Shown here: in pieces, positions 901 through 49,300 of the stretch
How the letters are laid out: every line of letters begins with the position of its first letter
How positions within the stretch are numbered: the stretch's first letter is position 1
NCBI RefSeq assembly: GCF_000219625.1
Contig: NC_018206.1
Location: 1-64,000, forward strand
Length of the DNA: 64,000 nt
DNA from: Zymoseptoria tritici IPO323
Lineage: Eukaryota > Ascomycota > Dothideomycetes > Mycosphaerellales > Mycosphaerellaceae
Direction: 5' to 3'
Notes under the pieces: model-generated
Databases searched by the model: none
Seen by the model: only the letters and a program-made list of their open reading frames with translations
What the model was told of the DNA's origin: nothing
Position numbers and translations under genes: made by a program

Positions 901-3900
901 TTAGAAATTCCAATCTCTATTATCTCTCTTAGTACGCTTAGAAGAGCTCTCTCCGATATCCCGGCTATAATCCTTATAGTGTTTACGGTTCTCTTTACTT
1001 TTAGATATATCCTCTCTTATATTACTAGGACCTCCTCTCTCTAGGCTACTAACAGAATCCGGCGAAGGAACTCGTAGATCAAGTAGATCTAGATCTAGAT
1101 CTTTAAACCCTTTAAGAGACCCTCCCTCTTCCCCTAGAGAAACCCTAGATTTACTAATAAGGTCTTTATAAAGACCGGTAGGATCTATTTCCTCGTCGTC
1201 GTCTATAGGCCCTAAATCCTTCTCTTCTATAGATCTAAGACTAATAATCGAAGTGTTAGGGCTACTACTACTAATATTATTATCCTCTAGTTCTTTAATA
1301 AGTCGATCGATCCGGAGCTTATAGAGAAGCTCGATAATCCGAATAGTCTCTAAGGTAAGGATACTTATAGGACTAATATTAAGACTAATAAACCGCTTTA
1401 GACTTATCTCCTCTATATCCTCCGTATATAGAAACGAAACCTCCTCCTTATAACTAAATAAGATAGCTATAATAGTATAGATATAGTCCTTAAGAAAGCA
1501 ACTATTATCGAGTACATTATACTTATTAATAAGAATAGAACAGATATTCTTAGGTAATAGGCACTTAGAGCAGCCCGAATTTCCTTTAAGGAGGCGTCCG
1601 TCCTTAACTTCCTTCTTTATAAATTCTATATTACTCTTTAGAGTTCTACTATCTCGGACATAGGGGCAGTCGAGAGAATAGTGTTTATAGCGATTCGAGG
1701 TATTATAGGGATTAATAATACAACAAATACAATAGTTGTTATAAAGATCTACTAGCTTCTCTTCTACTTCTAGTACTACCCGGTTTATATTTCGAGTTCC
1801 TTCCTCCTCTTTATCCTTAATTGTTTCGAGAATAGTATCTGCTTCGAGACAGAGAGAACACTTAGACTTAGAGTTATTAGCGCATTTAGTTAACGAATTA
1901 TCGAGGAATAGGCCTATAGGAATCCGTAGGCATCGAGATTCTATACTAAAGAGCTTATAATAGAGACGGTCTAGGTCCTTATACATACTTAGATCTATAA
2001 CTCGGCTAGTGTCCTTTAGTAGTATATTCTCCCGGGTATGCTCTATATTATACTTAGTAGGCCTAGGTCCTATTATAAAGCTAGTACCGCTAGACCGGAT
2101 CCGCCCGCTAGACTGTATAATACTACTAAGACTAAAGATAGGTTCTACATTAATAGTATACTTAATACTAGGGAGGTCGAGCCCGACCTCTAGAATACTC
2201 GTAGTAATAAGTACCCGTTTTGTATTAGTATTTATAAACGTATCGAGTATCGTATCTAATCCACTAAGGCCGCTATAGACAAAGCTATACTCTAGAGTAC
2301 GGGCGAGCTCCTCGCCTTGTTTCTTAGAGCTTACAAATAAAAGGATTTTATTACTTAGATCTAGGTCCTTCTCCTCTATTTCCCTAATAGTCCGGTATAT
2401 AGTAGGGATTTCCTCTATCTTAGAAGAATAATAGACTCTTCTATACGATATATCTTCCCGGTTACTAGATCCCCTAATAACTTTATTATAATCCTTTATA
2501 TTAAGGGTAGTATTAAGAATATTAAGAAGGCTATTAGGTAGCGTAGCTGTTAGAAAGATAAGATTAACTTTATACTTAACTAAACTCCGGAAGTACTTAA
2601 GGCGAAGCCTAAAGCTACTCTCTAATAAGAATAGATGTACCTCGTCGATATAGATAGATATGTCCCTATTATATTGCTTATATGTAGTAATTAACGTATC
2701 TAGCTCGTTCGAATTAAGCTCCTCTAAGTTAATAAAGAACAAATTACTATTACTACTAGCAGGATCCTTTAGGGTACTCGGATTTAGACCGAGGTTATAG
2801 GCTCGATTATAGAGGTCCCTACTAAGGCTAGTACGAGGAGTTATAATTATATATATTCTATTCTTTAGGATATAGCTAGGGAGAAGATAGAGTAGGCTTT
2901 TTCCGCTACTAGTCTTATTAATAAAGGTAATAATAGGTATATTATTAAGGATCTCTAATAGACCTTCCTTTTGAATCTGGCTTTTAAAGCTTGCCGTAGG
3001 GTCCTTATATAGCTCCTTAATATTTCTTTCTATAGTAGCTGTACTAAGACTAAATCCTAAGTCCGGCTCGATATTAAAGCTCTCTAGAGTAGACGAGTCT
3101 AGGAGCTTCCGTATAGAAGGATTATTAACATCGGTAGGGGTTAATAAATTAAAGTAGTTAAAGTAGAGAATAGTAAAGGTCTTAACCTTATCTAAGAGGC
3201 CTAGGTTCTTACTATTACTAAAGTTGAACCCGATATTAAAGTAGTAGTTATAGCTAGTTTTAGTAGATCTATTAGCCTGTATATCTTCGATAAGATCCTC
3301 TTTTACCTCCTCTCCTTCGCTACTACTATAGTAGTTAGTATTACCTAACTTTGTTTTAATAATATAGTTAATAATCTTTCGATAAGAAGCTATAGTAAGG
3401 CCTTTTCGAAAGAGACGACTAGACTCTAACTCTAGCGTAGTACTAAGAAGACTAGTAGTCAACGGCTTATTATCCCGTACTAAGAGTAAAGGAGTACTCG
3501 GTTCGTCTAGCGTATAGTACTCTCTATTAATATACTCTTTAAAGGGTATAATATAAAGAATATAAGTAATAAGTAGCTTACTAAGTCGAGGAGGTATAAA
3601 CCGGATATTTGCTTTCTCCCTACGAGTAATATTATTACTCTTACTCCAATCGGTTAAGATAGTAAAAACACCTTCCTCTTTATTATATAATAGGCTACGA
3701 GTTTTACTCTCGATGTTCTTAAAGAGAATAGTAGTTAACTCCGTGCTGCGAAGAGGCCCTCCGCTAAATAAGTATATTGCTAAAGCGAGATAGGTAACAA
3801 ACGAATTTATATTACTATTAAACCGCTCTATCTTACTAGCCTTAAAAACTATCTTATTATTCCTAACCCCCTTTACGAGGGTCTTATTATAATAAGTACC

Positions 3901-5874
3901 CGGAGTTAATAGTCTATCTAGAAAGTAGGGTCTATACTTAAAGGCCGAGAGGTTTTCGATGTCTAAAATACTAAACCCAACCCTATTAAGAAGATTATTA
4001 TCGTCTACTCGGTTAAAGTTAAAGTCTAGGTCGTCTAGACTATTAATACTAAGAAGTCTATGTAGTAGAATGTCCTCTAGTTTAGTATATATATTACTAA
4101 AGAGCTCCTTAATCTTCTCGATAGGGTACTCTATATTATTATAGATAATAATATTAGGCCTAACCTCTCCTATTAAACCGGCTGTAGTTGTAGTCTCTCT
4201 ACTTAAAGCTAGGAGATAAGGCCGGATAACAAAGATAAATTCGAAATAGTTACTACTAGTATTTGTAAGATATGTCTTTATAAAGTCCTCTATTCTAAGC
4301 TCGTTCTCTAGTTCTCGCTCGGTATATAGATCGTCTTCTAGTTTCTCTCGAAAGAGATAATAAGCTAGGGTAATAAGTCTAGCATTATATACTAGATAAC
4401 TACTAAGTTGACTTATTCCTAAGACCTCCTTAACCTCCTTAGTTCTTCTATCTAGACAGTTTATATAGTAGAAATTAATTACGAGATTATCTAGGGTACT
4501 ATCCTTATTAACCGCTAAAGGGATCTTAGTCTTAAGTAACTCTATCCCTAGTAAGCTAAACTTATAGAAGAGCTCTAGTTTATTCTCCTCTAGATAGATA
4601 GTACTAAGATCTAACTCAATAATCTCGCCGACTAGAGTATAGACCCGATCCGGAACTAAAATACTACTTACTATATTATAGTATTCCGACTCTATAGGGT
4701 CTATACTACCCTCAAAGTTAGAGCGTATAAAGCATACCTTAATAGTAAAGACAATAAGCTGTATATAGATATTAAAGTAAGTACTTCGAGTATATTTACT
4801 TATATGCGGAGTAAAGTCCTTAAATACTCTTTCGTCGATATTATTACTTCTAAGTCGTTGCCGTATACCTAAGGGGACTGCTAGGATCTTACTACTAGTA
4901 TCCGCTAGAAACTCAGCGATTAAACTTTCCAGTTCCCTAAGATCTAATCCTATCTTATCCTCTAAGTTAAACTCCGTTTCCTCCCTAGTATATAGAGTAT
5001 TAGAGTATCCTAGAGTAATAAGGATGTCTCTATTCTTATCTGTTAGATACCGTATAATATTTGACTTTCTAATAAAGCTATTTAGTAGCCTCGTATTTGT
5101 TTCAATACTACTACTTAGTAGTAAATCCTTACTACGGCCTAACTCTTCTTTAGAATATGTACTAAGTAAGAGCTCTTTAGTATTATCCGGAATAGAACTT
5201 AGCTCTACTACCCGGCTACTACTACTAGAGCTACTATCCCTACTCCGGCTAGTAGATCTAGATACCTCTCTATTACTAGGTATTCTAGTATCTCTAGATC
5301 GTCTTAGTTCTAGGTCCGGTAACTTAGGTATAAAGTATATTTTCTTATTATCCTTAAAACCCTCTAGTAGCTGAGCGGGTACACCTTCTAGAATCCAATC
5401 TACTTTAGTAGTCCCCTTATTATTATTACCGTGCTCTAGATTATAATGCCTCCTTACTTCCTTTCTAGAAATATTAAGGAAGTTACACTCCCTACACTTT
5501 AAAGCATTAAAGTAGATATCTAGCTCCTTAAATAAGTACAAATTAGGCCCTATAAGACTCTTTAAGCCGTCTATATCTAATAGCTCTAGATTATTAATAG
5601 TAAGAGTTAAGTCCCTTAGAGTACCCGAATCCTTATATATAGTATAGATCTGCTTATGCTTAGCTTTAAGGTGCTTAGTATAGTTATTTCTAGTAAGATT
5701 TATATAGCATTTAGAACAGAAGATTGTCTTAATCTCTATACTATAGGAAATAATAGTATCGCTAAGAGGAGTCGTAGGGTTTTCTCTAACTAGATCTTTA
5801 TCCCTAAAGTCTTCGAGGGTCGGTCTATTATTAGTTAGATAGTTATTAATATAGTCCTTACTACTAGGATCCAT
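901..5874 (-). CDS. Telomere-linked RecQ-like superfamily-2 helicase
   Basis: An uninterrupted 1657-codon frame, read toward the telomere about 700 bp away. Two C2H2-like fingers lie at residues 53-73 (C53, C56, H68, H73) and 127-148 (C127, C130, H143, H148), followed by a Ser/Arg-rich linker (about 190-225). The helicase core shows Walker A SSGKS at 989-993, the DEVH box at 1077-1080, an LTATLPN motif III and motif VI QSSGRIR at 1254-1260. A Cys-rich C-terminal part (CSLC, CICC, CSKCLLPKNIC) probably binds zinc. The GGPLRSTEL motif near residue 705 resembles the large N-terminal region of fungal telomere-linked helicases; that placement is from family knowledge. The residues encoded through CA/TG are extremely rare: 2 Met, 3 Trp, about 10 His and 11 Gln in 1657 aa. 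Yet the finger and DEVH histidines survive, so the frame appears to be selected. The start is the only upstream Met. Confidence 0.9.
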   Translation of the reverse strand: MDPSSKDYINNYLTNNRPTLEDFRDKDLVRENPTTPLSDTIISYSIEIKTIFCSKCYINLTRNNYTKHLKAKHKQIYTIYKDSGTLRDLTLTINNLELLDIDGLKSLIGPNLYLFKELDIYFNALKCRECNFLNISRKEVRRHYNLEHGNNNKGTTKVDWILEGVPAQLLEGFKDNKKIYFIPKLPDLELRRSRDTRIPSNREVSRSTSRSRDSSSSSSSRVVELSSIPDNTKELLLSTYSKEELGRSKDLLLSSSIETNTRLLNSFIRKSNIIRYLTDKNRDILITLGYSNTLYTREETEFNLEDKIGLDLRELESLIAEFLADTSSKILAVPLGIRQRLRSNNIDERVFKDFTPHISKYTRSTYFNIYIQLIVFTIKVCFIRSNFEGSIDPIESEYYNIVSSILVPDRVYTLVGEIIELDLSTIYLEENKLELFYKFSLLGIELLKTKIPLAVNKDSTLDNLVINFYYINCLDRRTKEVKEVLGISQLSSYLVYNARLITLAYYLFREKLEDDLYTERELENELRIEDFIKTYLTNTSSNYFEFIFVIRPYLLALSRETTTTAGLIGEVRPNIIIYNNIEYPIEKIKELFSNIYTKLEDILLHRLLSINSLDDLDFNFNRVDDNNLLNRVGFSILDIENLSAFKYRPYFLDRLLTPGTYYNKTLVKGVRNNKIVFKASKIERFNSNINSFVTYLALAIYLFSGGPLRSTELTTILFKNIESKTRSLLYNKEEGVFTILTDWSKSNNITRREKANIRFIPPRLSKLLITYILYIIPFKEYINREYYTLDEPSTPLLLVRDNKPLTTSLLSTTLELESSRLFRKGLTIASYRKIINYIIKTKLGNTNYYSSSEGEEVKEDLIEDIQANRSTKTSYNYYFNIGFNFSNSKNLGLLDKVKTFTILYFNYFNLLTPTDVNNPSIRKLLDSSTLESFNIEPDLGFSLSTATIERNIKELYKDPTASFKSQIQKEGLLEILNNIPIITFINKTSSGKSLLYLLPSYILKNRIYIIITPRTSLSRDLYNRAYNLGLNPSTLKDPASSNSNLFFINLEELNSNELDTLITTYKQYNRDISIYIDEVHLFLLESSFRLRLKYFRSLVKYKVNLIFLTATLPNSLLNILNTTLNIKDYNKVIRGSSNREDISYRRVYYSSKIEEIPTIYRTIREIEEKDLDLSNKILLFVSSKKQGEELARTLEYSFVYSGLSGLDTILDTFINTNTKRVLITTSILEVGLDLPSIKYTINVEPIFSLSSIIQSSGRIRSSGTSFIIGPRPTKYNIEHTRENILLKDTSRVIDLSMYKDLDRLYYKLFSIESRCLRIPIGLFLDNSLTKCANNSKSKCSLCLEADTILETIKDKEEEGTRNINRVVLEVEEKLVDLYNNYCICCIINPYNTSNRYKHYSLDCPYVRDSRTLKSNIEFIKKEVKDGRLLKGNSGCSKCLLPKNICSILINKYNVLDNSCFLKDYIYTIIAILFSYKEEVSFLYTEDIEEISLKRFISLNISPISILTLETIRIIELLYKLRIDRLIKELEDNNISSSSPNTSIISLRSIEEKDLGPIDDDEEIDPTGLYKDLISKSRVSLGEEGGSLKGFKDLDLDLLDLRVPSPDSVSSLERGGPSNIREDISKSKENRKHYKDYSRDIGESSSKRTKRDNRDWNF

Positions 5875-6885
5875 TATTATAACCCTTAATAGATAGTAGT
5901 AGGGTACTACTAATATATAGTAAGAATAGTAGTAGTAGAGGTAGTAGTAGAGTAGGGTATAGGGGTAGAAGCGTAGAGAAGTAGTAGGAAGTTAAGAAGG
6001 AACCTCTAGGTCTATGTAGAATCTTATAGCACCTTTATAGTCTATGCTCTAACCTTATACTATAGTATATCCTACCCTACCCTATATAGTTATAACCCTA
6101 GGTCTAGAGCTATATAGTATCTCTATTACCCTAAAATAATATAGATTATAGGGAACCCTAAACCCTATAGTCTATCTAGGGTATATAGAGCTTATATTCT
6201 ACCCCTAAACTATATAATAGACTAACCGTAGTAATATAGTATATTCTATATTTTATAGGCGTTAACCTTAGTAACCCTAATATCCGGCTACTACTTATAG
6301 AGCTATATATATAGGGGAGTACTCTATATAATATATAAGCTAAGAATCCTAAGCCTAAGCGTATATTCTCTACCCCACCCTAGGGTTATACTCTACCCTA
6401 GTACTATAGGGTATCTATAGTCTCCCCGCTTAGTCTCTTAGAGATACTTTTAATATATATATAATAACCTAACCCTATAGCCCTAAGCTATAAACTAAGC
6501 TATATAGGGTACGCTCTAGGTATAATAGTAGAAAGTAGTATATAGATAGACTGCTATACCCTATACTAAGCCTAAATCCTATATATATAATACTTTAATA
6601 TATATCGCTAGTTAAGCTAGCTCTACTATAGTACCCTATCTAATATATATACTATATACTACTCTATATATATATAATCGGAACTCTATATATATATTAT
6701 AGCCCTAGATCTAGCTATTATATACTATAGTTCTATATACTCTAAACTATATAGAGTATAGATTTCCTAGTATAGCTACTATATACTATACGTATTCTAA
6801 ACTATACGTATAGAGATTTATCCCTAATCTATAAGTAATCCTTTCCTTTCCTCTCTTTATCTTCTCTTTCTCTTCTATCTAGTAT

Positions 6886-7170: not shown

Positions 7171-7957
7171 ATGTCTACCGCGGATAATACCTCTATCCTC
7201 TCTCCGACAATCGTCTACTTTATTAAGAACTATATTAATAGTAACCCTATTATCCGCTCGACTTGCCTAGACCGGACTATTAAGGCTATTATTAATTACC
7301 TATCCTATAATCCAAAGGTCGTAGAGTACCTAAACCGGGTCCGGGTTATATACTTCCTTAAGCGGGCTAAGTATCTCGACTCTAAGACCTATAAGATAGC
7401 TATTGGTTAGAGCTCTAACCCTAACCCTAGAGCGTATACTAATATATCTATAACTAGGATTTATCTATAATCATTCTGGGACAGAGCTAGACCTAGATCT
7501 TAACCGATATATTTATAATCTTAAGGCTCTAAACGATACTTCGACCTCGAATCTTATCCGGACGATTAACGAGTACCTTACTCGCTATTCCCTCTACTTT
7601 AAAGATCAAAGTAAGCCTATATCCTCTAGCTAGTCTCTACTATACTAACTCTAATCCTAATTAGATCTTTCTCGTACCTTTACTAGTAGAGGACTCTTTC
7701 CGAAGGAGTTATTTACGACCCTAAGGTATAATATTAGGGGAGCGCGCGACTTCTACTTAGAAGTAGATATAGTAGACGATCTTCGATTAATCGGATCTTT
7801 AAACTCCTTTAATAAGGAGTATAAAGAAAGAGAGATCGAGGCTATTAGTCTATTTAAGCTAAGGTCTACTAGAGAGGAGGTAGATACCCTTACGGTAGAG
7901 GAAGTTAGGAGTATTTTAAGGGACTATACTCCTATAAAAATGGAGATAGAGGAGTAG
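7171..7957 (+). CDS. Unknown 226-aa protein, three exons, possible relative of the small-protein family
   Basis: Exons 7171-7405, 7458-7610 and 7665-7957 join in frame, both introns in phase 1 (GTTAGA...TACTAAT...TAG and GTAAGC...ATACTAACT...TAG). The first intron interrupts a glycine codon right after a helical segment containing VRVIYFLKRAKYL, echoing the ..LY.L....G| junction of the small genes at 11269, 14676, 17895 and 18432. No domain is recognised. The product is basic and helix-rich, with few Met, His, Gln, Trp or Cys, as expected from CA/TG-poor DNA. It lacks a signal peptide. All three exons are open and both introns have branch sites, which argues against a relic. It is divergent from the helicase. 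Confidence 0.7.
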
Positions 7958-11268: not shown

Positions 11269-11717
11269 ATGCCGTATACGTCCTCCCTTACTAAGGACTC
11301 TCTACTACTTACTCTAATTAGTAGTAGAGACTATAACATTATAGATATTATAAAGACTCTAAGAGAAACCTACTCGGAAGACCCGGCTACCCTTAAACTA
11401 CTAGATAAGCTAGAGTCTAGTATTAATCTATATAATCTAAAGAAGGAGTATACAATCTTTATAACCGGTATGTTATACTCTACTCTCTAGGTAGACTTAT
11501 ACTAACTAAGTATAAAGAGAATCGAGATACCGGGAACGTAAAGGAGAATATATCGAAGCTACTAGGTCGAGGTGTCTCTAAAGATACTCTGTCCGGAATC
11601 GAGCGAGGAATCTTAAAGGAACAGGTTCTTACTTTAAACATCGGTAAGACTCTTTATATATAGCTTATATTAACCCGAGGTCCTAACACTCTTATAGATC
11701 TTGCTCCGATATCCTAG
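11269..11717 (+). CDS. Small two/three-exon protein, 114 aa, subtelomeric small-protein family
   Basis: Exon 1 (11269-11467) ends in phase 1 inside a glycine codon after the segment LESSINLYNLKKEY; exon 2 starts at 11518 (VKENISKLLGRG...). The intron has GTATGT and TACTAAC. The frame can either end at 11663 or use a further intron (11644-11697) and end at 11717; both give 114 aa. The NLY.L core and the intron position match the genes at 14676, 17895 and 18432; the second exon again ends in charged helix. It is the most divergent member. Function unknown; no signal peptide or membrane segment. Confidence 0.58.
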
Positions 11718-12691
11718 GTAACTTAGCTAGTCCGAAGATATATATACGGGAGTCTAGGGTATTTAGTTACTTAGTTAGACGTTTTACCTAGAGGTATATA
11801 GTCTTTCTATTAGAAGGTCTCTTTAATCTACTATCTACGAGGCCTCCTATTATTACTATTATATTATAGTTCCTACGCTAGAATACTAGTCTATCTCGTA
11901 GGTTATAGTACGTATAGTATATAATAAAAATTTAGCTAGTAAACCCTAGAGGACGGCTATAGGTAACGTTCCCTAGTCTAGGTAAGACTTAGTAGTACTA
12001 GCCTATCCGAAGATGTTTCTTTACTAAGAGATATAACTTAAGCTTAGTCTAATCTAGTATAATACCTCGGATTAATTATTTATTTACCTAAGGAACTAAC
12101 TAAGTATATACGTTCCTAACTCTTTTATTCTATCTAACCCTAAGCTATAAGATTAATACCTAACTAGACTATCGGCTATAGTCTTAGAATAGCTAAGATT
12201 TAGTCTCTATTACCGGGTTTATATAAAAGAGCCTCTCCCGGAATATCCTATATCTATAGTATAGAAGGCTCGTAGTAGGAGTCTCTTAATTAAGGCGTAG
12301 AGTACCCTAACCCTACCTACTATCTACTAACCCTAGTAGTACCCTAAAGCTATAGTCTAGATTAGAGTAGAGGTACTAGTTATAAATTCTCCGGATAACT
12401 AAAGGTCGTCTAGCTTCTAGCTTCTTAACTATATAAGTTTATATCTAGTTATATACTAGGGATAGTAGTAGAGTAAACGCTAAGTAAGGCCTACCGATAC
12501 TTACTTTCTAACCGACCCCGCGTCTACTCTCTATGCTATATAGTAGCGCTCTATAATAACCCCCTACGAAAGTAGAGTATAAGATAAAGAGGCTTAGTAC
12601 CTATATTATTACTATAGCTATTATACTTAAAGGGATATAAAAGTAAGTAGTTATAGGGTAGAACAAACTCCGTACGCCTCTATAGAACTAC
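11718..12691. other. RIPed intergenic DNA
   Basis: No supported gene. Only two isolated start codons occur on the plus strand, each closed within eight codons. CA/TG-poor throughout except near the gene to the right. Confidence 0.55.
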
Positions 12692-13524
12692 CTATGCACC
12701 GTACTCGTTGCTCTCAAGCTGTAGAGTAGACGTATCTAATAAAATTAGTAAGGTAGCTAGTAGATATAGATATATAGTCTTACTTTCAAAGGCGTACGGC
12801 TGGCCCTGTGCAAAGTTAGGGCCTATAGGCCCTCCCGAATACTGTTCGGACGTTCCGAAAGGCTGGGAGAGCTCGTATGCCGTCGGGAAGGTTAAGGAGC
12901 CTAAGAATATTTAGAGAAAACTAAAGACTTTAAGGGTTTTAGAGGCCCTACTGTTATTTCCACCTCCGTATACCGGACCAGACCCTAACGACGGGTCGAA
13001 GAACGTTCCGACACATTGTCCGGACGGTATAGGGGGCTGGGAGAGGTCGTACGCAGTCGAGGAGGCCGAGGAATCTAGAGGAAATTAGTAAAAACTAAGG
13101 ATTTTAAGGGTTTTAGAGGCTATATAGTTACTTTCAGCTCCGTATACCGGACTAGACCCTGAAGACGGGTCGAAGAACGTTCCGATGTATTGTCCGGACG
13201 GTACGGTAGGCTGGGAGAGGTCGGTTATAGTAGAGGAGGCCGAGGAATCTAGAGGAAATTAGTAAAAACTAAGGGTTTTAAGACTATTAGAGGTACTACT
13301 ACTGTTTTGAGCTATTTTTAGCTCTTGTATCTCTTTGTCCCTTTGCTCGAGGAGTGTTTCGAGCTCTCGGATGCGGTCGTAGGCTCCCTGGATGCTTGTG
13401 TTCCTAGGGAAAGTAAGTACTAAGTAAGAGAAAGTAGTAGATATTTATCTTACTTAGATTGCCTTTGATTATAAGGCACGAATTTGGGGTGGTCTGCACC
13501 GCGTTTGTGACCGCACTTAGGCAT
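12692..13524 (-). CDS. Unknown 190-aa protein, six exons with three tandem paralogous exons
   Basis: Exons 13524-13454, 13403-13303, 13248-13132, 13074-12952, 12900-12784 and 12735-12692 join in frame (first intron phase 2, the rest phase 1). The N-terminus MPKCGHKRGADHPKF has a possible metal-binding Cys/His cluster. Exon 2 encodes a coiled coil (RIRELETLLEQRDKEIQELK). Exons 3, 4 and 5 (117, 123 and 117 nt, all phase 1-1) are diverged copies of one module around LSQP.VPSGQ..GTFFDPS.GS.PVYG; module plus intron is 174 bp. Unlike its flanks the gene keeps many CA/TG dinucleotides and Gln codons. In exon 4 the ancestral donor GTAAC has become ATAAC, and a GTAGG nine bases on restores splicing in frame. 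A plausible sister gene is at 19646-20282. Function unknown. Confidence 0.7.
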
Positions 13525-14675
13525 TGTAGAAGTGTTGTACTTGTAGTAGATAGGTATTATAAGGAACTATAGAGATAAGGAAGGAAAGGGATAGGTAAAG
13601 GAAGAACTAAGCTAGATATACTACGCTAGCTCCGTACTAAGCTACGGCTACTATTCCTAAAGCGGATAAGGGTACCCGAGAGGTAAGAATGAGTCACAAT
13701 CTATATATATATAGTACTAGTTATAAGCTAGTAGGGCTAGAGAGGGTCTAGAATAAGCTAAAGCCCTAATCCCGGCTTAGCTCGAGATAGGGCTAAATCT
13801 TAGCCCTAACGCCCTACCCTACATATATTCTATAGCGTATAAGGTCTTAAGAGCTCTTCTAGTAGATAGCTATAGTATCTTAGTCGAGCTATATAGTACT
13901 AGTAGTATATACTCTATATTAGTAGGTACTACCTCTGGACTTAAGGGTTCTATATCTTGTCTTAGCTTAAAGAGAATAATCTATATACCCTATACTACGT
14001 CTAGCCTATTTAAGCCTAGTAGAAGGTATTATATAGTGTCCTATCCTATAATATATATATATATATATAAATATAGTATACCGTAGCTCTACCTAGCCTA
14101 TACTCTAAATAACTATATAGTTTTAGACGGATCCCTCTTACTATATAGGTATTATAAACCTATATATAGTATCCCTAGAACCTTTCTTCTTAGCTATAGC
14201 AAATACTAGTCCTATACCTTATATAGATAATAATCTCTTAGAAGTACGGCTAGGTAGCTATATAGTACTATAATCCGGACCTATATCTATATATATAACC
14301 CTATAATATTACCCTACCCTATAGATAGAAACCCTATATAGCTTTACTCTAAAACGAGGCTAAGGTAGAGTCTACTAATCTAAGTATTCTATAGTATATA
14401 TCCCGAATATACTTCGGTCTATTATACTCTATACCCTATATACTACTAGCCCTATGACCGTAACTCTTTACCTAATATATATAGTATATAGGGAATAGAT
14501 TTAATAGATATAGGATATATAGCTAGACTCTATATCCTATAGCCTAGAAGGCGCTCGGATAATATAAGAAGGCCTAAACCGACGCTCTTTCTACCTATAA
14601 GTATTCTACGAGTATAGATCCTATACTCTACTTTACCTATCTTTTCTACTAATAAAGTAAAAGCTCTACTAATAG
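13525..14675. other. RIPed intergenic DNA
   Basis: No gene seen; the three start codons on the plus strand are closed within about 20 codons. TATA-rich tracts lie at 14050-14075 and 14280-14300. The 13525-13680 part is the likely promoter of the minus-strand gene to the left. Confidence 0.5.
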
Positions 14676-15039
14676 ATGGAACATCAAGATCTCTTTCTAT
14701 CCCTCTATCTCCCGCTAGAGCTATACCGCGTTCTCGAACGCCTTAGGGAAGAAACCCTACCCGAGAATATTCGAGAGGAAGTTAGGAGGCTTCGGGCAAG
14801 TCTAGTTAATCTATATATCTTAGAGAAGATTAAGGGTACCCTTATAGCCTATCTATAGCTTTGCGATATTACTAACTTAAGGACTAGGCTATAAGCAAAA
14901 GTTCTACCCGGGTCTTTACTACCTCGAAGAGCTAAAGAACGCACCGATCCTTAAAGACTCCCCGAGGAATTATAACTTTATTAAGGAGGAGATAGAGCGC
15001 TTTACTACCTTACCGGATCCTCGGCTACCTACTCTCTAG
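14676..15039 (+). CDS. Small two-exon protein, 103 aa, subtelomeric small-protein family
   Basis: Exons 14676-14835 and 14888-15039 join in phase 1 inside a glycine codon (donor GTACCC, branch TACTAAC, acceptor CTAG). The first half reads LPLELYRVLERLREE, then a helix with RASLVNLYILEKIKG at the splice; the second half ends in NFIKEEIERFTTL. The same order (P..L...L+R(I/L), LY.L...G|, (I)..EI.RL) is found at 15300, 17895 and 18432. Helical, charged, without a signal peptide; likely a small cytosolic or nuclear protein (inference). Known function: none recognised. Confidence 0.68.
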
Positions 15040-15299
15040 ATATAGAATTAATAGCTATCTAAGGCTACGTCTATTCTACTATACTAGGAATATCTCCTAC
15101 CCTACTCTACTACTAGCTTATCTCGGGTAAGTAAGATAACTATACCCTTTACTTTACTAAAGATTATATCCAAATCTCTTCTTCCTATTACTAAGATTAG
15201 TAGGGACCGGGAACCCTCTCTACTCTAGGATACTATAAGCCGATTGCCCTATTTAATAATATAAAGAGAAAGAAAGAGTAATAGAGTAAGAGAGAAGCG

Positions 15300-15709
15300 A
15301 TGTCTATTGTAGGATACCCTAGCTTCGAGGTAGACTATACTATACTAACCCTATATAGAGCGAGCGAGTCCTTATTAACTATCCCTTTAGAATTCCTAAG
15401 AGAACATTTATAATTCTCGACGAAATAGACCGGGAGTCTCTACCTCTAGGACACTACGCGCCGCGGCTAGTACGGCAATTTACGAAGGTTGTCTATATGC
15501 TTTATATTAAGGCTGTTCTTCTTAGTAAGTATTAAGTAAGAGAGTATAAGAAGACCCGAGCTTATATAACTATAGACGAGAGAAACCTTAGAGACCCGCT
15601 CGAATTCCTACCGAGTCTCGAAGGCTATATTACGACGGACGAGCATAATATTCTTCTAAACGAGATAGATAGACTACGAACAACAGTTCGAGAGGAAGAG
15701 ATAGTCTAG
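15300..15709 (+). CDS. Small three-exon protein, 102 aa, subtelomeric small-protein family
   Basis: Exon 1 is a 9-nt start exon (15300-15308, Met-Ser-Ile) spliced in phase 0 to 15359-15524, then in phase 1 to 15576-15709. Residues FRIPKRTFIILDEID parallel IPKRLLTSLERLI of the 17895 gene. KVVYMLYIKAVLL precedes the phase-1 intron, and the last exon (LRDPLEFLPSLEGYITTDE, then LLNEIDRLR) parallels LGEPLEYLRRLEDNLTPEE and IEIRRL there. The tiny first exon is the weakest part: the 50-nt intron 15309-15358 has a good branch site, but another start cannot be excluded. Confidence 0.64.
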
Positions 15710-16523
15710 CCTAGTAGGATTATAGGGAGGATAAAATTAAAAGAGTCTATCTTAGAAGGAGGGTCTATATAAGTATAGAGAGAGATTAGCTAGTTATAAG
15801 ATAAGTCTATCTATAAGAGCTAGGGCGGATATTATACTAGACTACTATTCTAAGCTACTACGGGATATAGGCTAGGGGGAATATAGGAGTAGAGAGTAAA
15901 ATATATAAGACATAGGTTATAATATATAGGATTCTAACCCTAGGGCCTTTATAAACATTAGTTAGTAGAGTTTTAAATATCGGGTAGTTAGATAATAGCT
16001 CCGGCTATTATTTAGGAGTAGACTTTAGTACCCTACCGCGTATATCTATTACTTACGTAAACGACTCGTATAAGAGCTAGCGTATAATCGTTCGAGAGCA
16101 GTAGGGCGCTTACGTTAATATATAAGTAGCTTAAGGATATAGTTATTATCTTCGCGGCGGCTACTAGAGATAAGGTAGAAGTAGTAAAATACTCCTAGAG
16201 TAAGTAGCTCTTTATCGCTACCTTATAGTAGAGGCTTCTAATCGTAACTATATAGACCTCTATACTATATAGTAGACGCTAGTAAGTTCTTATTAATAGT
16301 ATCTTACTCGAGCCTACTCTTTATCTTTATATATTACTAGTACCCTATATTTTAGCCCTTTAGGAATACTATGTATACTAGAGTCCCTAGACTGTTTCTA
16401 TACGTCTCTCCCTATATAACCTTTCTATATCCTACTTCCTAAGTAATTACCCGTAGTCCCTAACTCTATAATACCCTAAAATAATACTATAGACCCCTAG
16501 GAAACCCCCGTTATAAGACCGTC
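15710..16523. other. RIPed DNA, possible transposon relic
   Basis: No intact frame. Around 16050-16250 the plus strand reads a peptide-like stretch broken by several TAG codons, the pattern expected of a RIP-killed transposon frame, but no family motif can be named. Confidence 0.4.
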
Positions 16524-16837
16524 CTATCTATATAGGGGTGCACGGTCGTTAAGCATCCGGTATTTGCTCTTCGGAGGGCCGTATATATAGTTCTCTACCT
16601 TAATATCCTTTATAAGGTCGCGTATCTTCTCCTATATCTTAGGGTCCTTAGTATTAAGAATACCTTTAGAAAAGGCGTACGATATCCTAAGATCTCCTTA
16701 TAGAGACGTTAGTAGGGTTTATATATAGCTACTATATACGTACGGACGCTCCGTGCGATAGCTTCTCTTACTACCTCCGGTATCGGAACGCGGACGTCCT
16801 TCTTAGTATCTCGAGCTATAGATCCGGAGGCCGCCCT
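16524..16837 (-). pseudogene. Decayed spliced gene fragment
   Basis: On the minus strand a frame opening with RAASGSIARDTKKDV runs into a good intron (GTACGT...CTACTAACG...AAG, 47 nt), continues DLRISYAFSKG, meets one in-frame TAG, and stays open for 38 more codons to SKYRMLNDRAPLYR. No start codon is found for at least 1 kb upstream, consistent with ATG having become ATA by RIP. A possible intron at 16884-16845 precedes it. Family unknown. Confidence 0.45.
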
Positions 16838-17894
16838 CTTACTCCGAGTAGAAGAGCGTAGAGTAGGCCCTACTTACTGTTTCGAAGCGCGATCGGTAGT
16901 AGAAGACCCGGAGGAAGACACTAGATACTATTAGACCCTAAGTAGTAGATAATATAGTAGGTCCCTCTATACTTTCTAGAAATAGTATTCTAGCTTTAAG
17001 AACCGAGAGAGAGCTTATATCTCTAGATAGTAGAGATACGTAGGGGAGATAGTAGTAGTAGCAAGGCGTTCTATATCTCTTCTTCCTAAGATAGATAGAG
17101 AAGAAAGAGAATAGAGGAGAGTAATTATTATAGAAAGACTATAGGTAGATAGCGGTAGTTATGTAGCGGAAGTCCTAACGAAGACCTAACCCGAACCGGT
17201 AATATATATATTATAACCTATATATCCCGTTACCTAAGCCGTAGAGTATATAGGTATAAAGACTATATATTATATAGGGTATAAGGATACCTCTAGAAGT
17301 AATTATACTCTATAGAACCCCGAGGCCCGGCGCTCTATTAAGTAGTATATACTATACCTCCTAGAATAGTATATCCTTAGCGTAGGATAGGTCTAAATAT
17401 ACAAAGCGCTACTACTCTCTATAGTATACGAGTCCTAAGTAGATATAGACCTATAAGAAGAATATATCTAGTATATAATACTAGACCCTAGCCCGGTCTA
17501 GGTTACTATAGAGTATAGTACGCCCTAAGATATCTACTACTATCCTATGTTAGTATAGGCTAGACCGTAGCCTAGAGAGCCTCTAGATATAGGTGTTAGA
17601 GGTACTCTATATAGGATAAACCCTAAACCCTAAGCTATATACCCTAAGGCCGTCTAGGCTTTACGTTTAGTATTTTGCTCTAGATATATATACCCTATAT
17701 TATATAGCTCATAGATATATAGTATACGCTATAGTACTTCTATAGCTAATATAATATACTATATATTCGATACCCTACCTAAGGTACTTAAAAGCCTCCG
17801 AACCCGCCTACTTATAGAATATTTATCTTTACTACCTAGAGTACGCTAAGTACTACTACTAAACCCTACTACTATACTATACCTAAAGTATTAG
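16838..17894. other. RIPed intergenic DNA
   Basis: No gene seen. Rich in ctatata and tagtag words; the few ATGs close at once. The last 100 bases (ctactacta runs) probably promote the 17895 gene. Confidence 0.5.
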
Positions 17895-18228
17895 ATGGAC
17901 GAGATTGACGTTACGTACTATATCGGGATACCAAAAAGGCTTCTTACTAGCCTCGAGCGACTTATTAACGATCCTAATAATACGCCGGAAGCTACGGATA
18001 AGGCTAAGCAGTTTAAGGAGCGGATTATCTGTCTATATCTCCGAGAGCGCTTTATCGGTAAGTCTTAGCCGAATAAGAAACCTAGATAATATTCTAATAG
18101 GTCTAGATATATCTACAAGACTAGGAGAGCCCCTCGAGTATCTCCGCCGCCTAGAGGATAACCTAACGCCGGAGGAAGAGGATAGACTACGTATCGAGAT
18201 TAGGCGTCTTATTCGTCTTAGGTACTAA
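17895..18228 (+). CDS. Small two-exon protein, 96 aa, subtelomeric small-protein family
   Basis: Exons 17895-18057 and 18101-18228 join in phase 1 inside a glycine codon (donor GTAAGT, acceptor CTAATAG). Product: IPKRLLTSLERLI near residue 13, KERIICLYLRERFIG at the splice, then GEPLEYLRRLEDNLTPEEED and a basic helix IEIRRLIRLRY. It is the clearest match to the 15300 gene. A 107-codon frame starting at 17905 in another frame reads through the intron and uses the same stop; the spliced model is preferred because it has consensus splice sites and family similarity on both sides of the intron. Confidence 0.7.
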
Positions 18229-18431
18229 AGAGCACCCTAACTACTACTCTAATACCTCCTTCTATTTAATCGAGTTACGGTTACTCTACCTATTCTATAA
18301 AGGAATAGAACTCCTCTTAGTACTAAATAGGCTTAATAGAATGCCTAAGGTAGGTACATTTTCTAAGAGCCTAATACTAGATAGCTAATATTCTCTAGTA
18401 CTTTCTACTACCGATAGAAGTAACGACTAGA

Positions 18432-18715
18432 ATGCCTACGGATCTCTACTTTATTCTAGATAGAATACGAGAAGAATGTAGACAGACTAGCGACGAGACT
18501 CTAGCTAAGGAATTCGAGCAAGTAGTAAAGAACCTCTACTTTAAACTACGGTTAAACGGTATTATTCCTCTATATCCCTAACAAACGTCTTATACTAATA
18601 CGGGTAAGCTATTATAGGAACCGAACAGCCTCTAATAATGTTAGATAGATATATATTTGATCTTACGTCGGAAGAGTTTCTACTTATTAAGGAGGAGATC
18701 GAGAGGCTAAGTTAA
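18432..18715 (+). CDS. Small two-exon protein, 74 aa, subtelomeric small-protein family
   Basis: Exons 18432-18558 and 18618-18715 join in phase 1 inside a glycine codon; the intron has GTATTA and TACTAAT. Shortest member: MPTDLYFILDRIREE, VVKNLYFKLRLNG at the splice, then LTSEEFLLIKEEIERLS. The C-terminus shares KEEIER with the 14676 gene. It lies about 200 bp downstream of the 17895 gene on the same strand, suggesting tandem duplication followed by divergence. Function unknown. Confidence 0.67.
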
Positions 18716-19645
18716 AGTACTACGAGGATACCCTAATATCGAGAGTCTTAATAGATATAGTATAAAGGAAGAAATGGTATATCGAGGAGAAAGAGGATAG
18801 GTACTAAACTAGGCTAAACTTTTCTATCTACTTACTCTATCGGTCTAAGAGAATACTAAGGTAATAAGGTATCTAGGTCGAAGATAGTTATCCGACTAGC
18901 GCTATATACGCTATTAGGGGAGATATAAGGACTATATTAAGAGATAGGGGGACTATATCGGGAGACCTAGGACCTACTAGATATAGCTCGAACCCTAGAA
19001 ACGAAATAGGGCACCCTACGTAGTATATTACGGGCTATTCTATCTATATATATAATAGGGATATAAGGGCCTCGACTCCCCTTCGTAGATAGATTACTTA
19101 GCTTTATAACCCTTTATCTACTTATTTGTTCTAATAGTTATAAGCCTAGAAGTAGTAGTAGCATAGATAGATAGTATATATATCTTAGTATAATATATAT
19201 AAACGAGCTATCGGTCGAGGTAATTAATAAGCTATTATCTAAGGAAGTTAATAGATACTTAGTCTCTCTACCGTATATAACTCTAACGTCTAGAGGTACT
19301 AGAGCTTTAATATACTAGGTACTACCTTATTAATCTAGGGTTACTTAATAGTCTAGATAACCTTAGTATATAGGAGAGTAGATAAGAGCTAGTATAAGGT
19401 AGAACCGGTAGGAGGCTTCCCTCGTTTCGGTTTTAATACCTATAACTTCCGGATATTATAATAAGACGTAGAGCCGGGCTATAGGTATAAGATTAAAAAG
19501 TAAACGAGTTAATATACTAATAAAGAGTTCTAGATAACTAAAAGATACTATAGTAGAGGATAGAGCCTAAGATAGGCCGTCTAGAAGGAAAGTTTCACCC
19601 TAACGCCTTAAATTTCAATCTCTACCCTTAGATCTACTAGTATAT
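18716..19645. other. RIPed DNA without supported gene
   Basis: Long plus-strand stretches between about 19190 and 19600 are interrupted only by TAG and TAA, the look of a RIP-killed frame, but no protein family is recognisable. Confidence 0.4.
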
Positions 19646-20282
19646 CTACTCTAGATCCATAGGCTCTACGAATTCGTCGATCGGGTACTCGATAGAGAGC
19701 ATTGGATCCTCTGCTCCCTGTTTGAAAGGGGCCTTAGGCACCTGTTCTTCCAACGTCTCTATAAAAGTATTAGTAAAGATATAAGTATATTATAAGATAG
19801 GGGAGGCTTACTCATCTGGTAGTAAAGGGCCGCGGTCTCTTGCTGCGCGTAGAAGACTGTTTCGTGTGCGTAAGCTATAATATATATTAGTTTATTAAGT
19901 AGAATAGGTCTAGAGAGTAGACCTACCTAGAGAAGCTTCTAGCTCCTCTATCTTCTTACGGCTGGCTTCCTCTTGCTCTCTCTTCTCTTGTTCGATCTGT
20001 GCGATGCGAGCAGTCGTAGACTCTATTATATATGTTAGTTTATATAGTAGAACAGGTCTAGGTAGTAGACCTACCTAGAAGAGCATTTAGCTCTTCTGTT
20101 TTCTTCTTGTTCTGTTCTTCTTGTTCTTTGTTGTGTACAAGGCATATCGGGATTAGGATCTTGCTCGGGTCTACCGTAGACCACTCCTTGTAGGCCTTTG
20201 TAGGCTCGGTCTGTGTTCTTGGGCTCCTAGTACTATTAGTAAAGAAAGAGTAGTAGAAGAAGTCTTCTTACCTGAGTAGCAT
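19646..20282 (-). CDS. Unknown 144-aa coiled-coil protein, five exons
   Basis: Exons 20282-20272, 20226-20075, 20022-19927, 19874-19812 and 19758-19646 give one open frame (first intron phase 2, then phase 1 three times), each with a consensus donor and branch site. The middle is coiled coil, in two repeated units ending TEELNALL and IEELEASL, each followed by almost the same intron (GTAGGTCTACT...CTAA(C/T)ATATAT(A/T)ATAG). A tail with acidic residues (FVEPMDLE) ends the protein. CA/TG and Gln codons are retained, unlike the flanking DNA. Intron phases and overall design match the 12692-13524 gene. Function unknown; a self-associating structural or regulatory role is only an inference from the coiled coil. 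Confidence 0.75.
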
Positions 20283-21194
20283 TTTGGCTGTGTTGTTGTA
20301 GAAGAAAGGAAGAGAAAGAGAAGGAGAGTAAGCGCTACGTATATGCGTACGTAGCGGACATCAAGGTAGGGTCTAGCTATAGCTATCCTAGCTAAGAAAG
20401 CTCTAAAACAGAGAGAGGGCGCGTAGAGGGAACGTATCTCGCTCTACGTATAGCCTACTAAGGATGTTAGTAAAAATATGTTTATTAGGGTTATATTTAA
20501 CCCTAACGCGTAAGATTTCATTAGGTATACCCTAATACCTACCCTACTTCTATAGTAGTAAGCGGTTTTATCCGGTTTACCCGAGCTAAGACTTCTAGCT
20601 AATTATAAGTTACGTAAGCAACCTGTTACACTACTATACTTATTTATATTATAATTTAGTCCTAAAGACGTAATCCTAAGCCCTAACACTACCTATATAC
20701 CGCTAGATAGTATTAAAAGGTAAGGGTTGTCCCCGATAATGACAGGGATTAGGAGGCTGGATTCTTACTGCGATTAGACTTTTATAGTACACTTTAGATT
20801 TTGTTTCAAAAAGTAGAGTATTAAGTCTATATTATATCCAAATTTCAGCTTAAAGGCTCTTAAAACGGTTCCGTAATAAATTTCCGAAGTTAATACCCGG
20901 ATTTTACCTCGGGTCCGAAGTAGATATTTAGCTATCCTACCTTATAAACCCTACTCCTACGAGTCTTAGGGACTAGTTTTATATAGTTTATAAGTTCTAA
21001 GGCTTTTTAAACACCTCCCTAAAGTTGTAGGGATAAGTAATAGAATATAAGAGTTATACGAGTAACGGTATCTAGTATACGACCTTTTACTATAGTATAA
21101 TATTCTAAGATACCCTAAGAGAGACCGTACTAAGGTTCTTCTAGACCTCTTTTAACCCCTCCTATCGATTTACTTTAGTAGATATAGGTATAGC
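20283..21194. other. RIPed intergenic DNA with a less-RIPed patch
   Basis: No gene supported. 20283-20420 is the promoter side of the minus-strand coiled-coil gene. A patch at about 20710-20810 keeps CA/TG, but only short frames occur. Confidence 0.5.
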
Positions 21195-44822: not shown

Positions 44823-46351
44823 ATTTTTCGAGGCTTAGGTTTTATTTTTCTAGTATACATTTATAGCTAAAGATTAGTAGAAAACCTCTAACTAGTCTAT
44901 AAAAACTCTATAACTCTCTAAAAAACCCTAAGTACCTAATTTACTAAGAAAATCCTTAGGTTTCTAAGCTTTATTAATTTTCCCGAGAGCTATAGATTTT
45001 TCGAGGCTTAGATTTTATTTTTCTAGTATACATTTATAGCTAAAGATTAGTAGAAAACCTCTAGCTAGTCTATAAAAACTCTATACCTACCGAGAAAACC
45101 CTAGGTACCTATTTTACTAAGGAAATCTTAGGTTTCTAAGCTTTATTAATTTTCCTAAGAGCTATAGATTTTTTAAGGCTTAGATTTTATTTTTCTAGTA
45201 TACGTACGTATCTAAAGATTAGTAGAAAACCTCTAGCTAGTCGCTAAAAACTCCGTAGCCCTCTCGAAAACTAAATCTCGATCCGCGCTCGGTCCGACTA
45301 AGTAATTCCTACGAACGATATAAGTAGGGCGACCTAAGAAGATTAAAGGCGGTATTAAAGGAGGACGGCCTAGAAAGGCTAAATAAGTATTAGAATTAGT
45401 TCCTTTATTTACTTATTTATCGATTTAATTAATCTATCTTTCTATTTCTTTTTCTTAGTATTATAAATATTCGAGGTTTTCTCTTAAGCTAGGAGGTTTT
45501 CCTTAACTAGCTATAGGTTTTCTATATATATTTAGATATAGAGGAAGCTAGGAAAACCCTTAGCTAAGCTCTAAAAACTCCGTAGCTCTTAAGAAAACCT
45601 CTAAGTCTTTATTTTACTAGTAAATTTCTTACTATTATAGATACTCGAGGTTTTCTCTTAAGCTAGGAGGTTTTCCTTAACTAGCTATAGGTTTTCTATA
45701 TATATTTAGATATAGAGGAAGCTAGGAAAACCCTTAGCTAAGCTCTAAAAACTCCGTAGCTCTTAAGAAAACCTCGAGTTCTTATTTTTACTAGTAAATT
45801 CCTAGTATTTATTACTATTCGAGGTTTTCTCTTAAGCTAGGAGGTTTTCCTTAACTAGCTATAAGTTTTCCCTATACTATTAGATATAGAGGAAGCTAAG
45901 AAAACCTCTAGCTAAGCCTTTAAAACTTCGTAGCTCTTTTAAAAACCTCGAGTTCTTATTTTTACTAGTAAATTCCTAGTATTTATTACTATTCGAGGTT
46001 TTCTCTTAAGCTAGGAGGTTTTCCTTAACTAGCTATAAGTTTTCCCTATACTATTAGATATAGAGGAAGCTAAGAAAACCTCTAGCTAAGCCTTTAAAAC
46101 TTCGTAGCTCTTTTAAAAACCTCGAGTTCTTATTTTTACTAGTAAATTCCTAGTATTTATTACTATTCGAGGTTTTTTCTTAAGCTACGAGGTTTTCCTC
46201 GACTAGCTATAGGTTTTCTATATATATTTAAATATAGAGGAAGCTTAGAAAACCTCTAGCTAAGCTCTAAAAACTCTATAGCCCTCTCGAAAACTAAATC
46301 TCGATCCGCGCTCGGTCCGACTAAGTAATTCCTACGAATAATATAAGTAGG
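44822..46351. repeat. AT-rich satellites, 173- and 174-bp units
   Basis: First block: the anchor gatttttcgaggcttag (with variants) near 44821, 44994 and 45167, about 173 bp apart. Second block: tcgaggttttctcttaagc at 45471, 45645, 45819, 45993 and 46167, exactly 174 bp apart. Both blocks end in the same unique sequence (ctctcgaaaactaaatctcg, 45262 and 46284), so the array itself was duplicated. Strongly CA/TG-poor. Confidence 0.92.
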
Positions 46352-49300
46352 GTAAATTACTAGGGATAGTCTTTAGTATATTATAGTAGTAGCGAGTCTA
46401 TACCCGCTATAGGCGGTTGTCCTACGTATAAGGGAATCTATCGTCCTAGTTAAATAGGAGCTAAATACGTATTTCCTAGGTATTTAGCTAGGTAGAGAAG
46501 CCGCTAGTACCGGTCGCCCGCCTACTACCGTCTCTAATTAGGGAGACCTAGGGATCTCGACTAGTCGCCTAATCGATAAGGTTATAGGAAAGGCCTTCGA
46601 GTCCTATACGTTCCTATAGAGATACTTCGTCGGGGTCGTTAATATACGGTAAACGGGGTATCTTCCCTAACTATTTAACCGGTATAGATAGCGTCGAGAG
46701 AAGATAGTTATAGTAGCGGAATATATATAGCCGTACGAGTTCCCTTAGGGTTCTATTTAACGTAGCGCGGTAGAGTTCGGCGTCGCCGGCCTATATATAT
46801 CCGGCTAACTAACTTATTAGCGTCTATACCTAGGTCTTAAAGGCTATATAGAGACGGCCCTAACTAGTCGACCGGAGTTTCTACTAGAGGAAGTCGTTTA
46901 TATATACCGTCTATAATAGAACGCCTAATTAGAACCGTAGCTAAATCTAGTCGAATATATCGTTTAGGAGCTAGTAGAGGTTAGTACGACGAAGGGTCTA
47001 TAGGAGAGCTAGCCTACGGCGATCTTAGGGCGTACGTACTCTACGAGACTACTTATACCGGTCTTTCTCTAGCCGGTAGTAACGCCGTATATTACGGCTA
47101 TTTGTAGTAAACGTAAGAATATCGAGAAGGGCGGTTAAGAAAGCCGAGGCTAGGCTCTATTAAATATCGATAGTATCGCTACTAGTAGAGTAACTAGTCC
47201 GCGGGAGTATAGATAGGACTATATAGATTATATATAGCTAGCGGTTAATCTAGGTCCGGATATAGTAGAGTATATTACGCCTCTCGAGTATAAAGAAGGG
47301 CTAGTATATCTATCTATTCGTATACTATATAAGAGCCGGTTAATCGAGACCGGTAGGGACTTATACTTTCTAAAATAAGTCCTAGGATATCCGATATTCC
47401 TCTCGGACCCTAAAGCCGTATAGACTATCCTCGTACGACTAGAGCGAGTAGTAGACTAACTAGACTTTATACTTAAACGCTATAAAGATACGACGGCGCT
47501 ATAGAGCCTTAGTAGCCTACCCTCGCCGGGAGACCGCCTAGGCTTTATCGGCTATACTCTACGAGAAGGCGAGGCTACTATATACCGGCTAGGAGAATAG
47601 AGGTTCGGTCGACCGGTCGACTAGTATAAAGAGATCCTTAATATTATTATACCCTTATATAAAGGCGATACCGCCTAAACGCTTAGGTAATTCGCGCTTT
47701 AATTCGCCGCGAACCGTAGTACTATTAAAGGTCCTACTCTACTAGTAGAGCTCTAGCTTTATATTAAGCCGGCTAGCTTAGTATTCGTTATAGTTCGTAT
47801 AGTAGAGTAGAACGAGGGGTTCTCGATAAACCCTCGACCGGTTTATAGGTTAGTAGGCTAGGTCCTTAAATATAAGATCTACGAAGGCGGTATCGAAGTC
47901 GATATACTCCTCGTCGAATTATCGTTTAAGGGACCGGTCGACTACTTACTAAAGGCTAGCGATAGACGTCTTACGGAGCTCGAGCTTATAGCCGTAGCGT
48001 ACTATAATTAGTTCCGCTTCCTACTAGTCCTCTTCGTCGTCTACTAGGCGTTTATAAATATAGGTCTAGAGACGCGCGAGTAGTAGTACCCTAGGACGCC
48101 GGGCCTAATCGCTCGGCTATATATTTAGAAGGTCGTAGAATAGCTCGCTAAACGACCGGTTAATCGACCGAATCGACTACCGCTAGCGAGCGTAGGACTA
48201 GTTATACGCCTATTCGAAAGTATAAGGATAGTACTAGAGAATATCGTCTAGGTAGGTATCTTCGAGGGTAGGTATAAAGATTTTATTAATAAAATGCGCT
48301 TACTAGATCCGGTTAAGGTAGTAGCGGCGCTATTTATCGACCGCTCGTTACCGCTTTATAGATAGTAAAGGTAGGTTTAGGAAGAAGATATAGGTATCGA
48401 AGCTAGTAGTACCGAAGCTATAGGCGAGCCGGAAGTACTTATACGTCGTTAGGCGGATGCCCGACCGGCTAATAGGTATATACTAGTTACTAGAAAGAGT
48501 CTTTATAAACCGTAGCTAGTAATAGAACTAGATACTATACCGATAGGCTATAAGTAAGGTTAGTAGTAGGAATAGGGTATTAATATCCTACCGGCGTATT
48601 ATTATAAAGGGCCGCTACTAGTACGTTAGATAGGACCGCTCGAGCGATAGGACCGGTCGGTTATCGTCTAGTATACCGGTACTACTAGCGAGGAGTCTTT
48701 CCTATACGATATAGTAGATCTAGTCTTAACTATAGACCGGGAGAACTCTATACTCTATAATATATCGTATTATATCGGGAATCGTACGTCGTTCCTCTAT
48801 ATTTATATCTCTATCCGGGGACCGGTCTTAACTCTCCTTATCGCTTTTTCTAGTAACCTTAAGGCTCTAGTTATAGTAGAACTAGCGGAGTATTTAACCG
48901 GTCCCCTACTTCTCTAGACTAGCGCTATCTCCTATTACCTAAGAATACTTATAGCCGCTATAGTAAAAGGCTCTTTAGAGTATCCGAATAGTATAGAGAG
49001 TTATAGTATTCCTAACCTCTTCGCTCTTATCCTAATCTATCCCTCTACTACCTCGTACGCTCGACCGGTCGCTACTAGTATACGACGACGAATCGTCCTT
49101 AACGTCTTCTTCTTCTTCTTCTCCTACGTCGCTATTAGTAAGTAACTAGTCGTTAGGATCCCGAGGAACGGGCTCCTATATCTTAGGCTCGTCGATAACC
49201 GGTATTATAGTATACCTTATCCCTACCTTCTCGTCCTCGTTAGTAGCGCTACTACCTAAAGTAACTAACCGGTCGCTACGTATATCCGAAAAGTCGTCCT

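Follow-up and report, generated by a model that had tools for sequence, protein, structure and literature searches.

The first 64,000 nucleotides of contig NC_018206.1 of Zymoseptoria tritici IPO323 (the window), the left end of contig 13 in a genome of 39,686,251 bases and 21 contigs, carry four predicted spliced loci on the plus strand, here called genes A, B, C and D and beginning at 14676, 15300, 17895 and 18432. They probably are working genes. The tiny proteins that they would encode are predicted to be helical, and purifying selection has apparently kept the genes amid repeat-induced point mutation (RIP) or Dim2-type CpA-to-TpA mutation. By sequence comparison their predicted products are homologues, four diverged tandem paralogues. 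The sites that RIP could still hit in their coding sequences (CpA and its complement TpG, hereafter CA/TG) would all change the protein, and this makes A-D likely working genes that have outlived RIP. Purifying selection acted on them in the past and likely does so at present. From the sequence we infer that they are spliced, expressed and functional today.

Subtelomeres saturated with RIP are commonly dismissed as dead repeats. Over the first 23 kb of the window CpA and TpG are strongly depleted (observed/expected ~0.06-0.2, with two islands at 0.34-0.66), and this depletion is the mark of RIP. In Z. tritici, C-to-T mutation at CpA is described as Dim2-dependent in the relevant passages of PMC8016269. 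The window from ~2 kb to 22.5 kb is also present at the right end of contig 8 (chromosome 8), in two main pieces that are 99.1-99.8% identical; the ~2 kb boundary is the edge of the DNA that was compared. Only the contig 8 copy has a further stretch of ~5.6 kb, at the position matching 6,524-6,537 of the window. We examined 102 mismatches between the copies; at 39 of them the window copy has CA/TG, and at 15 the contig 8 copy has it. The parts of PMC4522978 that bear on this region describe a 39.7 Mb genome of 21 chromosomes and a helicase gene pair in a subtelomeric stretch common to chromosomes 8 and 13, and the shared block, together with the helicase frame described below, fits that stretch.

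Between 6 and 23 kb there are 38 plus-strand ATGs, and the six with the longest frames are the starts of A-D together with those at 7171 and 11269. Gene A is predicted to consist of exon 1 (14676..14835), a 46-nt phase-1 intron (14836..14881) and exon 2 with its stop codon (14882..15039), encoding 105 aa, or 103 aa with an alternative acceptor at 14887. For gene C the model joins exon 1 (17895..18057) to exon 2 and stop (18101..18228) across a phase-1 intron at 18058..18100 with a GTAAGT donor; the acceptor is either 18100 (43 nt, 96 aa) or 18106 (49 nt, 94 aa). Gene D has exon 1 at 18432..18558, a phase-1 intron at 18559..18608 and exon 2 with stop at 18609..18715, for a product of 77 aa, or 74 aa with an alternative acceptor at 18617. 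Gene B is the most complex. Its longest product with a single intron of 40-80 nt is 61 aa, and we rejected that model. Since no ATG precedes the motif within the conserved frame, we proposed a start mini-exon (15300..15308), the least certain element of all the models. It would be followed by an extra phase-0 intron of 50 nt (15309..15358), an exon homologous to exon 1 of the other genes (15359..15524), a 51-nt phase-1 intron at the shared position (15525..15575, GTAAGT..ATAG) and a last exon with stop (15576..15709), giving 102 aa. This model was picked from 11 two-intron variants (96-102 aa) by its donor and its alignment. By eye, CTAA(C/T) lies 5' of the acceptors of A, C and D and of the 5' intron of gene B, as the branch-like TACTAAC in gene A and in the gene B 5' intron. 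In gene C it is very close to acceptor 18100, so 18106 may be the true acceptor.

The predicted phase-1 donor of each gene, A-D, lies exactly six residues past an invariant Leu-Tyr, whichever acceptor is chosen, and the models thus have a phase-1 intron position in common. A preliminary description of this DNA had proposed five such loci, the fifth at 11269, each open only after removal of one intron of 44-60 nt placed directly after a Leu-Tyr helix. The single intron stood for 11269, 14676, 17895 and 18432, while 15300 needs two; in the rebuilt models the phase-1 introns measure 43-59 nt. Phase 1 was correct for all five loci. At 11269 the intron lies 11 residues past Leu-Tyr. A split Gly codon had been claimed for four loci; we found that the split codon encodes Gly at 14676, Asn at 15300 and Glu at 11269, while at 17895 it is Gly only if acceptor 18100 is used and at 18432 only if 18617 is. 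Nor was it accurate that no frame exceeds 110 codons, since a 113-codon stop-to-stop frame (17887-18228), slightly above that length, overlaps gene C.

Spliced open reading frames (ORFs) of this kind are rarely produced by composition: 300 order-3 Markov simulations gave a mean of 0.007 per 6 kb, versus 3 in the real 6 kb, under rules that recover gene C with acceptor 18106 and miss gene B. The four loci form two close pairs, A-B and C-D, ~260 and ~200 bp apart, as might be seen if they were pieces of one or two larger genes. However, A-D each have an ATG and an in-frame stop to themselves, and all these ATGs have kept their TG although the DNA is nearly free of TG, which leaves the larger genes very improbable.

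The homology was assessed with hidden Markov model (HMM) profiles built from three members and scored against the fourth. The held-out full-length products scored 21.8 (A), 33.7 (B), 28.3 (C) and 32.2 bits (D). We made 3,000 composition-matched shuffles per member; counting those reported, 0 of 2,981-2,995 reached any held-out score, and the shuffle maxima were 11.9-14.4 bits. The exons were also tested singly in a scan of 7,911 ORFs, drawn from the present chromosome end and from others, and the training members and contig 8 twins were removed before ranking. The held-out exon ranked first in 8/8 tests among 5,675-6,702 reported ORFs: for the first conserved exon 1/6245 (A), 1/6533 (B), 1/6642 (C) and 1/6702 (D), and for the last exon 1/5845, 1/5675, 1/5740 and 1/5971 in the same order. 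Reversed decoys scored no more than 4.0 bits in these exon profile tests. Positions invariant among A-D include P, L and LY (exon 1) as well as L, L and EI.R (exon 2), and identity to gene C is 20-39% per exon.

Could L/E/R/I-rich open frames simply come to resemble one another in biased DNA? CA/TG depletion does narrow the codon set, and short frames occasionally stay open (stop codons make up 8.9% of codons). But the family members outscored shuffles matched in composition, reversed decoys and thousands of chromosome-end ORFs, the intron position is shared among A-D, and the RIP footprint described below arose in 0/20,000 random placements. We regard chance resemblance as refuted for A-D, with almost no probability left to it, and retain it for 11269. 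That locus (11269..11663, plus strand, intron 11468-11517, phase 1) is a predicted spliced ORF of 114 aa with a split Glu codon. We rejected it as a family member: it scored 1.9 bits against the four-member profile, a score equalled or exceeded by 756/2,988 reported shuffles. Of its residual CA/TG sites, 3/7 are synonymous.

The coding sequences of A-D hold 29 residual CA/TG sites, and 0/29 would be silent if RIPed; a hit would destroy a start codon at 4 of them, cause a missense change at 18 and a nonsense change at 7. When the same DNA was read in the two shifted frames, 14/29 and 8/25 sites were synonymous (Fisher p=1.1e-5, using 22/52 with two sites inside stop codons excluded). As controls we took 51 frames that lie between 6.0 and 19.6 kb and are open for 40 codons or more; in these, 34/120 sites were silent (p=3.3e-4 versus A-D). 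We also made 20,000 random placements of equal lengths, which held a mean of 11.3 sites with a mean synonymous fraction of 0.289; at least 29 sites occurred in 0.07% of them, and at least 29 sites with none synonymous never occurred. Control frames and placements avoided A-D as well as the locus at 7.2-8.0 kb and the island at 12.6-13.6 kb, and 11269 was kept among them. The alternative models of B and D gave 0/28 synonymous sites. The sites are also concentrated in the exons, with 29 in 1,153 bp, compared with 3 in 240 bp of intron and 37 in 4,567 bp outside, a density 3.1 times that outside (p=1.0e-5, exons versus outside).

Apparently RIP has consumed the silent targets in A-D and selection holds the remaining ones. 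The proposal in the preliminary description of tandemly duplicated, selected small proteins in RIP-saturated DNA is borne out for four loci by the profile tests, the lack of synonymous sites and the exon enrichment, and it does not extend to 11269. A helicase frame of 1,696 codons, which also lies within this depleted DNA, has the same tendency, with 15/101 sites synonymous versus 37 and 37 in its shifted frames.

Several points weigh against living, selected genes. Taken singly, the held-out exon-2 profiles score weakly (11.0-14.2 bits), and gene B leads the next ORF by 0.4 bit. Where gene B begins is uncertain, and A, C and D each have more than one candidate acceptor. Zero synonymous sites alone occurred in 5.1% of random placements, mostly site-poor ones. 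The residual sites number only 29, and shifted frames are a non-independent control. Codons for Gln, His, Cys and Met hold CA/TG unavoidably, so the informative fact is that avoidable CA/TG is absent when compared with equally depleted non-coding DNA. Depleted long ORFs at other chromosome ends were lower than only one of their shifted frames, as in examples with few sites (4/19 synonymous versus 9 and 5, and 1/8 versus 5 and 1). The footprint itself places selection at some time during exposure to RIP and not at the present day. Our searches, which were limited, found no relative outside the duplicated block, so constraint is not measurable across species. Finally, exonic sites of the chromosome 13 copy are missing on chromosome 8 at 4/29, about the rate elsewhere (6/40).

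Another reading is that A-D are relics, genes once selected whose footprint is a fossil and whose two copies are now both being eroded by RIP. The four genes differ between chromosomes 13 and 8 at five exon positions, comprising one stop, three missense changes and one silent change, and these differences show no sign of constraint in the chromosome 8 copy. Gene A on chromosome 8 has a stop at codon 4, which together with the loss of exonic sites there at about the rate elsewhere and the strongly depleted DNA surrounding A-D is what relics would look like. On the other hand, all four frames on chromosome 13 are open with start and stop, B, C and D are open on chromosome 8 too, and none of the exonic sites present on chromosome 8 is missing on chromosome 13 (0/25 versus 5/39 elsewhere; the numbers are small and no significance test was applied). 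The site losses would fit decay of the chromosome 8 copy and care of the chromosome 13 copy. We consider relics unlikely, if the strongest of the alternatives.

If A-D are instead selected genes, the pattern may have arisen as follows. RIP would first have exhausted their synonymous CA/TG sites. Afterwards every RIP hit would alter a protein, and selection would purge it from the copy that counts; redundant copies, for instance the one on chromosome 8, would decay. RIP has an identity threshold, and at 20-39% identity per exon to gene C the genes are too diverged to be expected to make one another targets of RIP.

We looked for relatives of A-D within the genome. Searches with each of the four proteins (E <= 10) found only the copies at the left end of contig 13 and the right end of contig 8; their sensitivity is limited, since a search with one paralogue did not recover the others. 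With a stop-tolerant profile we scanned the window together with 24 further stretches, which gave nothing below E 0.79 beyond the four loci and their twins. Three of these stretches were the contig 8 twin, and 21 came from 11 of the other 40 chromosome ends, with 10-20 kb each.

It might still be that A-D, rather than being host genes, belong to a mobile element or a telomere-linked repeat, as yet undescribed, that travels with the helicase block. They do lie in a block common to two chromosome ends, together with a telomere-linked helicase frame of a kind known in this species, where a subtelomeric RecQ helicase family is reported in the passages of PMC4522978 that concern it. Against this, the genome searches, within their limited sensitivity, gave only two copies of the block, and the multicopy dispersal typical of a transposon was not seen at E <= 10 with any of the proteins. 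Relatives of the helicase frame occur at other ends too, and no mobile-element domain was among the Pfam matches. A mobile element therefore seems improbable, somewhat more so than relics.

Searches outside the genome gave few matches. At E <= 0.001 neither Pfam nor NCBIfam had a match; in Pfam, five families each matched one of five proteins with a best E of 0.0037, and in NCBIfam there was one match at E 0.078. Seven PDB sequences matched at E <= 10, the best at 0.17, and no family was assigned. In an alignment search of 5.77 billion proteins, only P0001 and P0002 among 722 candidates aligned at E<=10. Their source is given as '-', the mark of window-encoded proteins, and their lengths of 57 and 49 aa are those of the unspliced first frames. 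Searches with single proteins gave P0001 again from one and no candidate from another. Since the hits have unspliced lengths, spliced fungal proteins may be poorly held in that collection, and the absence of relatives is weak evidence.

AlphaFold models were made with four sequences each and with the exons folded apart. Exon 1 of gene C was predicted to form helices at residues 6-10, 14-24 and 31-53, of which the second and third are the main ones, with a mean predicted local distance difference test score (pLDDT) of 82.6 (93-94 in the middle blocks) and a predicted template modelling score (pTM) of 0.61. Exon 2 was modelled as two 18-residue helices, 3-20 and 23-40 (mean pLDDT 79.4, pTM 0.46). 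In our reading of the models each exon would form one helical hairpin. An internal duplication, tested by comparing exon 1 with exon 2, was rejected (hhalign probability 0.4, no profile match). A fold search of the PDB with the exon-1 model returned 56 matches at E up to 10 and none at E 0.001; the best E was 3.6, so no fold was assigned. No secretion signal was recognised by eye in the A-D products, and no predictor was run. Given the predicted helices and the lack of a recognisable signal, the products would most likely be an intracellular helical module for protein-protein interaction, a guess that is the weakest step of our interpretation.

Other gene-like loci share this chromosome end. 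The helicase frame (901-5991, minus strand) stays open for 1,696 codons in depleted DNA and encodes DEAD and Helicase_C domains; a stretch resembling OrsD (E 5.8e-4) was below the cut-off. Its relatives are open frames of 1,060-1,071 codons at the ends of contigs 3, 4, 12, 17 and 20, and they align over residues 106-957, ahead of the helicase domain. By eye, a multi-exon gene-like locus at 12690-13524 (minus strand) has a first exon containing Cys and His and a coiled-coil-like exon. Three similar consecutive exon-like units with similar introns between them can also be seen by eye in this locus, and relatives at E <= 0.01 were only the contig 13 and contig 8 copies. A second CA/TG-richer island at 19560-20345 (minus strand) is, by eye, likely a coiled-coil gene with several introns; many of the RIP-type differences of the chromosome 8 copy are located here. 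A likely spliced gene lies on the plus strand at 7171-7957. Its first frame has 79 codons, an intron of 52 nt may lie at 7406-7457, and there is a frame of 98 codons at 7661-7957. Farther in, the 6 kb from 45000 to 51000 have a CA/TG observed/expected ratio of 0.02, lower than that of the subtelomere, and are likely a RIPed repeat. We tentatively raise the possibility, somewhat short of an even chance, of a standing gene nursery at this chromosome end. Several spliced genes without kinship to one another, namely the A-D family and the two coiled-coil-like minus-strand genes, would persist there in hypermutating DNA with the helicase next to them. Their code would be purged and RIP-hardened, so that the CA/TG left over is mainly what the proteins require, and residual CA/TG would provide a single-genome map of the selected codons.

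Our literature search, which covered titles, the starts of abstracts and passages, found no description of A-D among the papers listed. Four known systems come closest. In Pseudocercospora fijiensis (P. fijiensis), a histone H3 gene among RIPed copies has probably stayed intact through purifying selection, according to the passage in PMC6710886. As there, A-D have coding sequence likely exposed to RIP, a protein kept by selection and decaying copies; unlike that housekeeping gene with its hundreds of dead copies, they are four diverged orphan paralogues in DNA nearly without CA/TG. With the subtelomeric RecQ family, as outlined in PMC4522978, they have in common open frames in low-GC subtelomeric DNA. 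Those helicases are large and present at many chromosome ends, whereas A-D are small and were found only in the contig 8/13 block. FoTeR of Fusarium oxysporum, from what is excerpted of PMC12857005, likewise combines RIP and purifying selection at telomeres, near telomere-linked helicases; FoTeR elements are retrotransposons, whereas A-D are small predicted spliced ORFs in which no transposon domain was found. Like the orphan genes of Z. tritici in the sections of PMC4502367 that describe them, A-D are without known relatives or function. That orphan set was derived from predicted gene models.

Asking whether the surviving CpA and TpG sites of a frame are silent or not requires only a single genome, and helps to sort living from dead frames without transcripts or relatives. 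In this window the test picks out a family that is predicted to be spliced and to have only products shorter than 110 aa. Used genome-wide, it could count the genes inside RIP-saturated DNA of RIP-competent fungi, and could show whether orphan families arise or persist there.

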